DNA of 64,000 bases from Methanococcoides orientis (GTDB lineage Archaea; Halobacteriota; Methanosarcinia; Methanosarcinales; Methanosarcinaceae), in contig NZ_CP073710.1 of the NCBI RefSeq assembly GCF_021184045.1, positions 1,684,685 through 1,748,684 on the forward strand, given 5' to 3'. Each line of letters begins with the position of its first letter. The stretch's first letter is position 1. A model generated the notes under the pieces. That model ran no database searches, was not told the origin of the DNA, and saw only the letters and a list, made by a program, of their open reading frames with translations. A program made the position numbers and the translations under genes. Below are positions 28,023 to 32,540 of this stretch, piece after piece.

Positions 28023-29426
28023 TTATGCGATGGTTTCCCTGAACTTGTCACAGCAGTTGATGTTGATACCGAGGAGTTTCTCGATGTTCATCTTAGCTGC
28101 AATACCCTTTGCACAGCCAGGAACTGATGTGATTACACCAATGTCGAGCTCTTCTCTGATCTCTCTCATGACGTACTCGTCGGAAAGGTCTGCGTTCTCG
28201 ACACCGAGTTTCTTTGATACGAAGTCCTTTGCTTCGTTGATCCTCATGTTCTTTGTGAACTGCATCCTTGCAACAAGGTCACCAGCTGCTCTCATTCCAG
28301 TCATACCTGATGCCATGATGTGTGCAATTGGCATACCGAGTGGGTCGCCCACACCGATCTATATACCGTCGACGCCTGCGATCTCGACCATTGCCTTGCT
28401 TGCCCTGGTTACTGCATCTATTGGTGGTGTCTCAAGCATTGGGATACCGCCGACACCCATACCCATATCTACGTGACATGGTATTGGAGATGCCTCAACA
28501 GCTGCCTTCATGAAGGTAACTGAGCGACCAAGGTTCCATGCGGAGGTCTTGCTGGTGTTGGTGTTACATACAGGACCGAAGGTGTTTGCTCCTGCCTTTG
28601 CTGCAAGTAAAACCTGCTCGTGTGGCCAGAGACCTGCAAGTACTGTACCATCGTACTCAAGCTCTCCGTGCATACCGAGAACGAGTTCTCCTGCCATACC
28701 TGCATTGATGTACATGTTAGGGAATTCTTTCCTGAGTGCTTCAATAGCATTGAAGGATGCATATGCATCACCATCACCAGCTGCACCGATGGTATCGAAG
28801 TTGACACCGTCGCAACCGACGTGCTGAAGTCTCTGCATGATCCAGACCATGTCACGGATTCCGTGGTCACCAGCTTTCTGGATGGATTCCTGAGCTTCAG
28901 AGATCTTGAATGCTTTCATGAGGTCACCAGGGTTCTCGAATGGACCATCAGGAGTGTAGTACAGACCCATGTTTGGCATTGCACCGTAGAGCATAGGGAT
29001 GACCATGTTCTGCTGGCAAACTTCCATTGTCTGCTGTTCCTGGGAGATAACTGGCTTGACAGGCTTGTAACTGTAGTCGATGTGACCGAGTTCCATTGTG
29101 TCTGCACCGAATGCGCGCTCGTGGATCATGGAACCGACGAGTCTGCTTGCAGGAATACCTACACCGCTGTTACCCTGGTCACCATCGATCCTGATTGCAC
29201 CGATGTCGTGTGTTACCGGAACTTCCATTCCTGGCTCTACACCGACGATCCTGTCAGGTGATGTGATGATATCGAGCATTTTCTCCATTTCATCTTCTGA
29301 GAGGGATGCAATGCTACCAAGGTCTGCTGCGTCAGCACAACCTGCTTCGATGTCAGCTCTGATATCTTCCTTTGTCATGAAGATCTTTGCGCCGTCACCC
29401 ATTCTTAAGAAATATTCTGTTGCCAT
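28023..29426 (-). CDS. mtbB: Dimethylamine:corrinoid methyltransferase with in-frame pyrrolysine codon
   Basis: MtbB transfers a methyl group from dimethylamine to the Co(I) corrinoid of MtbC. Reading through an amber codon at 28359-28361 (codon 356) gives 467 residues, the normal MtbB length. The context [18 protein letters not shown] is the known pyrrolysine site, so this is one gene and not a frameshifted pair. N-terminal [20 protein letters not shown] and [20 protein letters not shown] are strongly family-like. AAGGTGTAAAC precedes the ATG. It is the last gene of the operon, 25 bases after mtbC. Translation needs pylT/pylS from elsewhere in the genome. Confidence 0.97.
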
Positions 29427-29451
29427 GTTTACACCTTAGTATTAGGGGAAC

Positions 29452-30096
29452 TTATAAGAGGAGTTCTTTTGCTTTTACTACAGCTTCACTTGCGTTTTCT
29501 GCATAGCAGTCTGCGCCGATCTTCTTTGCCCATGCGTCTGTTGCTGGAGCGCCGCCGACCATTACCTTGATACCATCTCTCATGCCGTTCTCCTTGAGAA
29601 GCTCAATGACTTCTTTCTGGCCCTGGAGGGTGGTTGTCATAAGTGCGGAGAGACCGACCATGTCAGCGTTGGTTTCCTTGATCTTGTCGATGAAGTTCTG
29701 GAGTGGAACATCCCTGCCAATATCGTGGACTTCAAAGCCTGCTGCCTGGAGCATGGTTGATACGATTGCCTTACCGATGTCGTGAACGTCACCCTCGACG
29801 GTACCGTTTACAATTACACCGAGCTTGTTGCCTGCGCCTTCACCGGATGCAAGTTCGTCCTGGAGTAACTCTACACCAGCGGACATTGCGTCAGCTGCCA
29901 TCATAACGTGTGGAAGGAAGAGTTTTCCTCTCTCGAAGAGTACACCGACTTCGTTCATACCTGCTGCGAGACCGTTGTCGATAAGTTCTACTGCTGGAGC
30001 CTGGCCCTTTGCCTTCTCTACTGCAGCGATTACACCATCTTTCTTGCAACTTACTACCGCATCGGATAGTTCTTTGAATAATTCTTCTGTTGTCGT
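29452..30096 (-). CDS. mtbC: Dimethylamine corrinoid protein, apparently started at ACG
   Basis: MtbC carries the methyl group on its cobamide from MtbB to the CoM methyltransferase. The full frame gives 214 residues: a helical cap (residues 1-90) and a B12 domain with EGDVHDIGKAIV (DxHxxG, axial His), GLSALMTTT and VMVGGAPAT. The family N-terminus, (M)TTEELFKELSDAVVSCKKD, begins exactly where the codon is ACG (30094-30096), 7 bases after AAGGAGG. No ATG, GTG or TTG is in frame between an upstream stop at 30187-30189 and Met47, and starting at Met47 would remove half of the cap. See findings. Confidence 0.9.
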   Translation of the reverse strand, partial: TTTEELFKELSDAVVSCKKDGVIAAVEKAKGQAPAVELIDNGLAAGMNEVGVLFERGKLFLPHVMMAADAMSAGVELLQDELASGEGAGNKLGVIVNGTVEGDVHDIGKAIVSTMLQAAGFEVHDIGRDVPLQNFIDKIKETNADMVGLSALMTTTLQGQKEVIELLKENGMRDGIKVMVGGAPATDAWAKKIGADCYAENASEAVVKAKELLL

Positions 30097-30120
30097 TTTA
30101 AAACCTCCTTTGAAAACAAT

Positions 30121-30218
30121 TCTATGACGATCCCAGAGGGATCTTATAGAAAATGTAAATGTAGTTGGCGGATATGCCCGGGAATACTACCCGGTGCTTA
30201 CCCAAAAGCCCAACTACA
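30121..30218 (-). promoter_or_regulatory. Structured leader in front of mtbC
   Basis: The 147-base gap before mtbC holds nested hairpins. TGTAGTTGG/CCAACTACA (30160-30168 with 30210-30218) closes a loop containing CCGGG/CCCGG. Nearer the start, TCTAT/ATAGA encloses GATCCC/GGGATC (30121-30150), ending about 9 bases from the Shine-Dalgarno AAGGAGG. They could act as processing, stability or translation-control elements. Confidence 0.6.
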
Positions 30219-30243
30219 TATATATATTTTGTGTTTCGCGTCC

Positions 30244-30402
30244 TTAGAATTGGGACACAAATGTCCTTGCCTGCCACAATGCGATCAAACCGATCACAAT
30301 GACTGCAATCATCCAGGTGTATTCTGCTGCTGGCATAGGGGCGGTGGTCATATCAAAACCAGGGCCATAGTAAGCAACTGTTAAATCGTTCATTACTCCC
30401 AT
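30244..30402 (-). CDS. 52-residue single-span membrane peptide in the methylamine operon
   Basis: A small gene behind an excellent Shine-Dalgarno (AAGGAGGTTTGATT, then ATG 30402). The product starts MGVMNDLTVAYYGPGFDMTT, has one membrane helix (YTWMIAVIVIGLIALW) and ends QARTFVSQF. It lies 12 bases after the 98-residue gene and before mtbC. A tiny one-pass protein two genes after the permease MttP may be a transporter accessory subunit; that is inference. No named family is recognised. Confidence 0.8.
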   Translation of the reverse strand: MGVMNDLTVAYYGPGFDMTTAPMPAAEYTWMIAVIVIGLIALWQARTFVSQF

Positions 30403-30414
30403 AATCAAACCTCC

Positions 30415-30711
30415 TTATACATACTCCAGACATGCATCTGATGAACGAACCTTTCCGAAGTCAGTGATCACATACTTGTGCAAGAGGAAGCCTTTCTTGT
30501 ATACGCCATCCTCATCCACTTTTGACTCCACAGATTTAAGCATACCACCTGAAGCGAGCTCGAGGATATCGAAGTTGATCGAATCCCTGCCGAAATTGCT
30601 GTTCATGTTGTATTCTTTCTGGATCTGTGTTACGATCTCATTGTTCCAGTGCTCCTTCTCATCAGTGAAAAGCTCAAGCAACCTAAATTTTATTGGGCGT
30701 AATCCTGCCAT
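30415..30711 (-). CDS. 98-residue winged-helix-like protein in the methylamine operon
   Basis: The product (MAGLRPIKFRLLELFTDEKE start; HWNNEIVTQIQKEY; INFDILELASGGMLKSVESK; LLHKYVITDFGK end) has the order helix, helix, recognition-like helix and wing of a small DNA-binding domain. The start is ATG 30711, one base after the mttP stop; AGGTGA overlaps the end of mttP. It may feed back on methylamine gene expression, or bind a protein or RNA partner instead. I know no characterised homologue. Confidence 0.75.
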   Translation of the reverse strand: MAGLRPIKFRLLELFTDEKEHWNNEIVTQIQKEYNMNSNFGRDSINFDILELASGGMLKSVESKVDEDGVYKKGFLLHKYVITDFGKVRSSDACLEYV

Positions 30712-30712
30712 T

Positions 30713-31759
30713 TTACTCACCTCTCAGAGATTCTGCATCACCTGTTTCTTCGGAAATCATTACAAAGCTACCGAGGACACAAAGTGCACCACCGACAAGT
30801 ACAGTCCATGCTGGCACCTGTGCCATGAACAGGTACATGAAAATTACAGCACAAAGACCGTAAAGGTTTCCGATACCCTGACCTCTTCCGACACCAATGA
30901 GTGGGAATGACTTATACCAGGAAACGTAGCAGTAACCGAATGTGATACCTGCGAATCCAAGTACAATGAGTGACAGTGGGTTGAATGCAGCAAGTGCATA
31001 CTCAAACATTGGATAACCAATGAGTGCGAAAATTGGTATGAGAATTATCCAGTAGATAGAAGCCTCTCCGAGGAACCTGATAGTGATACCAACATCAGGC
31101 TCTGCGATGTCAAGACCTTTACCAGCAATTGCACCTTCAATACCCCATCCGAGTGCTGCCATAAGACCACCAATGTATCCAATGTAATTGATACTACCGG
31201 ATGTGATCTCAGTGATTGCTCCACCGACGAAGATAGTAAGACCACCAACAATGATGACAAGGATACCCATCCAGGCCCTCTTGGAGATATTTTCACCATA
31301 CCATTGCCTTGCAAGGACGGAACCGATCACAGGATACAACAAAGCTGCGACTGCTGCGAATCCTGCTCCAATAAATCCAATTGCGATGAATGAACCAAGG
31401 ATAGCAATAGGTCCACCAAAGATAGATGCAAGGAAGAACCATTTACTGCATGGGTGGAACTCTTTAAGTGTTCTCTTCATCTCACCAAACTTACCAAGCA
31501 CACCGTTCCATACCAACAATGCGGCTATAACAGTTAATGCATTAAATCCGGATATCAAAAGAGCTACAGCAATGGTTGCCATTGAACCACCGTGTGTTGC
31601 ATCAATAGCTACCCACATTGAATCAAATGGAGGTACTGCCCAGATAATAGTACCTGGAATATACCATATACCCCATAAGATTGCACAGAATAGGGCCCAC
31701 ATATAACCCTTGTTCATTTTCCTTTTATTTTCTAACTTCTTCAATTCTCTTATATCCAA
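30713..31759 (-). CDS. mttP: MttP, putative methylamine permease
   Basis: A 348-residue protein with about ten membrane segments and the EamA/DMT-like two-fold repeat, matching the MttP family found in trimethylamine operons of Methanosarcina. Motifs include MWALFCAILWGIWYIPGTII and GRGQGIGNLYGLCAVIFMYL. It is presumed to import methylamines, though direct proof for the family is limited. The start is TTG 31759, seven bases after GGAGGAGGAG; an internal ATG (31714, MNKGYMW) is less well placed. It lies between mttC and the 98-residue gene. Confidence 0.9.
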   Translation of the reverse strand: MDIRELKKLENKRKMNKGYMWALFCAILWGIWYIPGTIIWAVPPFDSMWVAIDATHGGSMATIAVALLISGFNALTVIAALLVWNGVLGKFGEMKRTLKEFHPCSKWFFLASIFGGPIAILGSFIAIGFIGAGFAAVAALLYPVIGSVLARQWYGENISKRAWMGILVIIVGGLTIFVGGAITEITSGSINYIGYIGGLMAALGWGIEGAIAGKGLDIAEPDVGITIRFLGEASIYWIILIPIFALIGYPMFEYALAAFNPLSLIVLGFAGITFGYCYVSWYKSFPLIGVGRGQGIGNLYGLCAVIFMYLFMAQVPAWTVLVGGALCVLGSFVMISEETGDAESLRGE

Positions 31760-31889: not shown

Positions 31890-32540
31890 TTACTCAGCTG
31901 CTGCGTTACATTTAACGACTGCGTCTGTTGCGTTCTCTGCGTAGATGTCTGAGCCGATCTTGTCTGCCCAGTCCTGTGTGACAGGTGCGCCACCGACCAT
32001 GGTCTTGACTGTGTCACGGATTCCAGCTTCCTTGAGCTGCTCTTCGATCTGCATCTGAAGGACCATTGTTGTGGTCATGAGTGCGGAAGAACCGATTACA
32101 AGTGGCTTGTGTTCCTTGACTGCATCGACGTATGTAGCGATTGCAACATCTCTACCAAGGTCAACTACCTTGAATCCAGCGATCTTGAGCATTGTTGCGA
32201 CAATGTCCTTACCGATGGAGTGGATGTCACCCTCGATTGTACCGATGACGATTGTTCCCTTAGATGCTGCTGCGCCACCCTGTGCCTCAAGGACAGGTGT
32301 GAGGACTGCTACACCAGCGCTCATTGCTTCAGATGCTGCAATGACGTGTGGAAGGAAAAGAGTACCCTGTTCGAACTGGTCTCCTACTTCGTTCATACCT
32401 GCGGTAAGACCATCCTCAATAAGGGATACTACATCGACACCTGCGTCGATTGCTTCTTCACATATCTCTTCAACAAGCTCGTCATCGAATTCCATGACTG
32501 CAGCTTTTGCTTTTGCGTTAATTTCATCCTGTGATACCAT
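31890..32540 (-). CDS. mttC: Trimethylamine corrinoid protein
   Basis: A 216-residue cobamide protein that accepts the methyl group from MttB. It has a helical cap (residues 1-90, with QFEQGTLFLPHVIAASEAMS) and a B12-binding Rossmann domain with EGDIHSIGKDIVATMLK (DxHxxG), IGSSALMTTTMV and TMVGGAPVTQDW. AAAGGAGTTTTAAAA precedes ATG 32540. It lies 43 bases after mttB. The normal ATG here contrasts with its relative mtbC, where the leader is almost the same but the start triplet is ACG. Confidence 0.97.
   Translation of the reverse strand: MVSQDEINAKAKAAVMEFDDELVEEICEEAIDAGVDVVSLIEDGLTAGMNEVGDQFEQGTLFLPHVIAASEAMSAGVAVLTPVLEAQGGAAASKGTIVIGTIEGDIHSIGKDIVATMLKIAGFKVVDLGRDVAIATYVDAVKEHKPLVIGSSALMTTTMVLQMQIEEQLKEAGIRDTVKTMVGGAPVTQDWADKIGSDIYAENATDAVVKCNAAAE

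Follow-up and report, generated by a model that had tools for sequence, protein, structure and literature searches.

The mtbC gene of Methanococcoides orientis begins at an ACG codon, and all regular orthologues examined from Methanococcoides and Methanohalophilus retain this near-cognate start. MtbC is a corrinoid (vitamin-B12-type) protein that serves dimethylamine use by methane-making archaea. We put at about 0.88 the probability that mtbC is translated from ACG by a 30S subunit placed by the Shine-Dalgarno (SD) sequence and the ordinary initiator Met-tRNA, the weak codon being selected as a brake. The window analyzed here (the whole stretch of 64,000 nucleotides) is part of a complete genome of 2,494,162 bases.

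The start site of mtbC

Read directly from the window, the minus strand at the mtbC start is TTTTCAAAGGAGGTTTTAAAACGACAACAGAAGAATTA. This is exactly what the preliminary description had given, i.e. an ACG placed 7 bases after AAGGAGG (spacer TTTTAAA; Table 1). The in-frame stop that it had located upstream is also present, and the frame between this TAG (30189-30187) and Met47 contains no ATG, GTG or TTG. In some species (L121, L002 and L118), an in-frame stop lies just 7-11 codons upstream of the start, and again no ATG, GTG or TTG follows until Met47. The sister corrinoid gene mttC has a near-identical leader with an ATG, as previously stated (AAAGGAG-TTTTAAAA-ATG). In mtbC, the SD stands at normal spacing from the odd codon; the ACG-SD distance equals the ATG-SD distance in ATG-started relatives.

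Table 1. Features of the mtbC region, all on the minus strand; positions are those of the window.
Feature	Position	Evidence or remark
mtbC, dimethylamine corrinoid protein, 214 codons counted from ACG	29452..30096	Pfam domains and codon-position pattern
ACG start codon of mtbC	30094..30096	Window sequence; ACG in 28/28 distinct orthologues, two genera
Shine-Dalgarno AAGGAGG of mtbC	30104..30110	7 nt 5' of ACG
Upstream in-frame stop TAG of mtbC	30187..30189	Window sequence
Met47 of MtbC, first in-frame ATG/GTG/TTG	29956..29958	Rejected as start; domain and codon evidence
mtbB, dimethylamine methyltransferase, in-frame UAG at 28361-28359	28023..29426	Downstream of mtbC and adjacent to it
ATG-started sister corrinoid gene mttC, for comparison	31890..32540	Window sequence
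TATA-like box AAAATATATATATG, putative mtbC promoter	30217..30230	Sequence, kept in 10 Methanococcoides and Methanohalophilus leaders; role inferred
Leader stem I (ATGTAGTTGG / CCAACTACAT) and inner hairpin	30159..30219	Helix 1 paired in 8/8 distinct leaders
Leader stem II (TTCTAT..GATCCC-tct-GGGATC..ATAGAA)	30120..30151	One pair G-C to A-U in 4/8

Translation could instead begin elsewhere, either at Met47, a conserved residue encoded by the earliest in-frame ATG, or by other means at an upstream codon, but both are very unlikely. Two Pfam domains were found in MtbC, B12-binding_2 (PF02607, residues 7-78, E 2.7e-21) and B12-binding (PF02310, residues 94-206, E 7.6e-31). Initiation at Met47 would cut the former, with the loss of 40 of its 72 matched residues (more than half of the N-terminal domain), which bears out the earlier remark that half of the cap would be deleted. 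Moreover, codons 2-46 evolve as coding sequence: differences are about 4-6 times as frequent at their third positions as at the first and second ones, a pattern similar to the remainder of the gene and typical of translated sequence. As for an upstream codon, the frame is closed within 7-11 codons in the species mentioned above, and small between-species indels disrupt it 5' of the ACG. The gene is without a canonical in-frame start able to give the full domain.

ACG throughout Methanococcoides and Methanohalophilus

We searched for mtbC in 60 related genomes as well as in the genome collection and compared the start regions. When 112 genomes of the family were screened by pattern search, two ACG-started copies appeared in each of 11 Methanococcoides genomes and ACG-started mtbC in all eight Methanohalophilus genomes, the genera being assigned from loci in the genome collection. 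All distinct full-length sequences of the regular orthologues in the two genera (28 of 28) start with ACG, so that the leader alignment of related strains, proposed as a check in the preliminary description, finds the codon conserved. In Methanococcoides, the start of copy 1 reads AAGGAGG-TTTTAAA-ACG or AAGGAGG-TTGTAAA-ACG, and that of copy 2 reads GGAGG-TTGTAAC-ACG, with an additional A in one case; the bases directly upstream of the ACG vary between copies and genera, but the codon is constant. Its presence in both copies of one genus and in a second genus is far beyond chance or error. Retention over whole genera marks the ACG as a real feature, probably a built-in brake on protein amount. 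In one Methanococcoides genome, a third, divergent copy (86% identical; G004:C4:372924, L123) was observed to have an ordinary ATG; AUG is therefore tolerated in the genus.

In sequence sets selected by carrying ACG or ATT, the start codon is conserved beyond neutral expectation: among the 28 ACG sequences it changed 0 times, with a mean of 2.9 changes on the tree at 4-fold sites and about 2.5 at C/T sites, and among 23 ATT sequences 0 times versus 5.6 and 3.7, respectively. In addition, all six other invariant Thr columns of the ACG set vary in codon. Since the start codon itself served to select these sets, the argument is carried by the uniformity of whole clades or gene positions rather than by the count alone. 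It has also been reported that mtbC copies undergo concerted evolution (PMC6053082), and two copies within one genome are thus not independent witnesses.

ATT starts in related genera and the strength of the SD

ACG and ATT are each one base away from ATG. Using a tree of 99 MtbC proteins along with gene order to group the start codons, we found three groups with near-cognate starts. The first comprises the ACG-started copies of Methanococcoides and Methanohalophilus, for which a single, weakly supported origin is possible. The second consists of Methanosarcina-type copies heading mtbC-mttB-mttC operons, with ATT in 17 of the 18 members of the set and ATG in the remaining one (L103); in these genera, the mtbC-mtbB copies that stand alone start with ATG. 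The third is a second, stand-alone Methanolobus copy, which has ATT in several species.

All 51 near-cognate mtbC copies carry GGAGG 7-8 nt upstream of the start, versus 20 of the 64 ATG-started copies (4-10 nt upstream), a difference with a Fisher p of 1.6e-16 among rows that are related by descent. In a 400-kb sample of the M. orientis genome, the background is only 6 of 129 ATG-started genes. Such SD strength at near-cognate starts is the pattern to be expected if the SD makes up for a weak codon.

The leader of mtbC and its neighborhood

The leader of copy 1 (about 100 nt) contains two stem-loops before the SD, and folding of the last 135 nt gave -46 kcal/mol. This structured leader (30120-30219, minus strand) is strongly conserved in Methanococcoides; Methanohalophilus leaders also have two stem-loops, of different sequence. 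The outer stem (stem I) shows one pair with two-sided change among eight distinct leaders, although the structure was hand-drawn and is partly out of register, which makes stem covariation weak evidence. An Rfam search of positions 29000-31000 gave no family match. The structured leader may take part in controlling mtbC, and the start-codon result stands without it.

Between mttP and mtbC, two small conserved ORFs were observed on the minus strand, one encoding a 52-aa membrane peptide (30244-30402) and the other a regulator-like protein of about 100 aa (30415-30711). Their order is the same in Methanococcoides, Methanolobus, and Methanomethylovorans.

Other near-cognate starts in the genome

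Combinations of an SD with ACG are few in the M. orientis genome: AAGGAGG stands 6-8 nt before ACG at four places, and GGAGGT with ACG gave 25 matches. Besides mtbC, these matches are convincing only for the gene of an unrelated 104-aa membrane protein (G000:C1:2156675-2156364, minus strand; L178/L180), which has ACG 7 nt after AAGGAGG and no Pfam family. The codon is ACG in all 10 Methanococcoides with a readable start (proteins 66-100% identical), an in-frame stop is present immediately upstream in four species, and in other genera, ATG stands at this position or close to it in some relatives. The gene of an MMPL-type transporter (G000:C1:36571, plus strand; L229/L314) starts with ATA behind AGGAGG, and the ATA is present in 10 of 10 Methanococcoides; a paralogue group of this transporter was seen to have CTG.

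A survey of 400 kb in this genome against one relative covered 255 conserved genes, three of which keep a near-cognate codon at SD distance and lack a better canonical start, so that such starts make up about 1% of the sample and ACG is rarer. Besides mtbC, these are a candidate ATT start behind TGAGGTGA in a protein that we call CGGC-type after our own reading of a CGGC motif (G000:C1:1860771, plus strand), and a candidate ATA start behind GAGG, directly after an in-frame TAA (G000:C1:1925044, plus strand). Two further candidates were set aside. The ATA of a CbiG-like gene (G000:C1:106859, minus strand; L234/L304) lies behind AGGAGGT and is conserved in 10 of 10 genomes, but the end of the upstream gene probably overlaps it, so that its conservation is not clean evidence; a second ATT-looking gene in Methanosarcina (L168-L170, L173) has an ATG a few codons downstream that is the likelier start. 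The preliminary description had expected natural ACG initiation to be rare. This view has to be broadened, given ATT in the same gene of other Methanosarcinaceae and, within Methanococcoides, a conserved ACG start in at least one gene besides mtbC and several conserved ATA/ATT starts.

Alternative explanations

A base-call or assembly error at a true ATG had been named as the main alternative, with some reason, as ACG is one transition from ATG and an error is the commonest cause of a single odd start. The related genomes refute it: 28 distinct sequences, which come from different assemblies of two genera and include both gene copies, share this C, leaving error with practically no chance. Natural ACG initiation, which the preliminary description had offered, is supported instead. 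We also consider it highly improbable that the mRNA is edited from C to U in chloroplast style, so that ribosomes would see AUG. ACG is the sole codon that such editing would cure, and the 104-aa gene has it too. However, the orthologues with ATT and the other Methanococcoides genes with ATA could not be cured in this manner, and no obvious common motif besides the SD surrounds the ACGs. We know of no mRNA C-to-U editing system in these archaea. A precedent for ACG editing in chloroplasts is cited in PMC9845219.

Another explanation concerns the purpose of the ACG rather than its reality and is compatible with the start assignment: the weak start may have no role, drift and gene conversion having fixed it and the strong SD making it tolerable. 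The documented concerted evolution of mtbC (PMC6053082) would fit this, as would the coexisting ATG copy in one Methanococcoides genome, and near-cognate starts in unrelated genes suggest that the translation machinery may simply tolerate them. On the other hand, ACG is a single transition from ATG and the start never changed where comparable C/T sites changed about 2.5 times, and near-cognate starts recur in separate groups of the mtbC tree. We regard a roleless start as possible but unlikely, with an appreciable share of the probability.

Proposed mechanism of initiation

In the reading that we prefer, initiation at ACG under selection, the near-perfect SD (AAGGAGG, 7 nt away) would position the 30S subunit on mtbC, and the ordinary initiator Met-tRNA (anticodon CAU) would take ACG despite one mismatch, so that MtbC would start with Met. 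This residue is probably removed, since Thr, Ala or Ser follows it. The genome carries two tRNA-Met (cat) genes of the initiator type. No initiator-like tRNA with anticodon CGT was found there, and the other initiator-arm matches that were checked are ordinary tRNAs or no tRNA; the SD-anchored ordinary initiator with one mismatch is thus the simplest reading. Selection would keep the weak ACG for a lower, possibly aIF1-dependent, initiation of MtbC from the highly transcribed methylamine locus. Beyond the observed start site, its conservation and its strong SD, decoding by Met-tRNAi, the lowered rate and the reason for selection are what we infer.

By analogy with bacterial systems, the ACG or ATT of mtbC would most likely keep the synthesis of MtbC low for the amount of transcript. 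The limit on MtbC dosage suggested earlier, or a regulation of it, would be consistent with a weak codon that is kept and an SD that is maximized. Counting against a brake, MtbC is expected to be abundant on di- and trimethylamine, so that a weak start looks paradoxical. In Sulfolobus, aIF1 is reported to disfavor non-canonical starts (PMC6237735). A wider proposal, in which ACG is equally a genuine start, is that the Methanosarcinaceae genes with near-cognate starts and strong SDs form an archaeal start-fidelity regulon whose translation follows the level or state of aIF1, with mtbC (ACG/ATT), the 104-aa membrane protein (ACG), the MMPL-type transporter (ATA) and others as members; we hold this to be rather doubtful.

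Relation to known systems and significance

The mtbC start is a conserved near-cognate start, which is a known kind, and ACG in archaea is the new part. To our knowledge, an ACG start has no archaeal precedent, and a search of mainly open-access literature gave no description of a non-AUG start for mtbC. Among the closest cases are the orthologues of Methanosarcina and Methanolobus, whose operon or second copies have a near-cognate codon at the same place behind the same strong SD; there, however, the codon is ATT, and other copies in the same genomes have ATG with a usually weaker SD. In bacteria, infC (IF3) starts with AUU as a controlled brake (Butler 1987, as cited in PMC9845219). Both starts are near-cognate, conserved and one base from AUG yet kept, but infC encodes a start-reading factor under autocontrol, whereas mtbC encodes an archaeal catabolic corrinoid protein and uses ACG or AUU. 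The GTC start of Streptomyces sigR is repressed by IF3 and required for the correct partner ratio (PMC5472188). It is a conserved non-canonical start like that of mtbC and lowers one member of a partner pair; sigR is a bacterial regulator for which the role of the fidelity factor has been shown, whereas a role of aIF1 at mtbC is a proposal. Chloroplast ndhD, psbL, and rpl2 likewise have ACG at the start position in DNA, which C-to-U editing turns into AUG (PMC9845219); here, the ATT of mtbC orthologues and the ATA starts of relatives favor initiation directly at the near-cognate codon over editing of this type.

ACG is not among the start codons of table 11, which is used for archaeal annotation, and annotation will therefore probably truncate such genes or give them no start. 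With ACG across two genera and ATT elsewhere in a central catabolic gene, mtbC offers an archaeal counterpart to infC and sigR; mtbC and like genes are natural substrates for the study of start choice by archaeal ribosomes.
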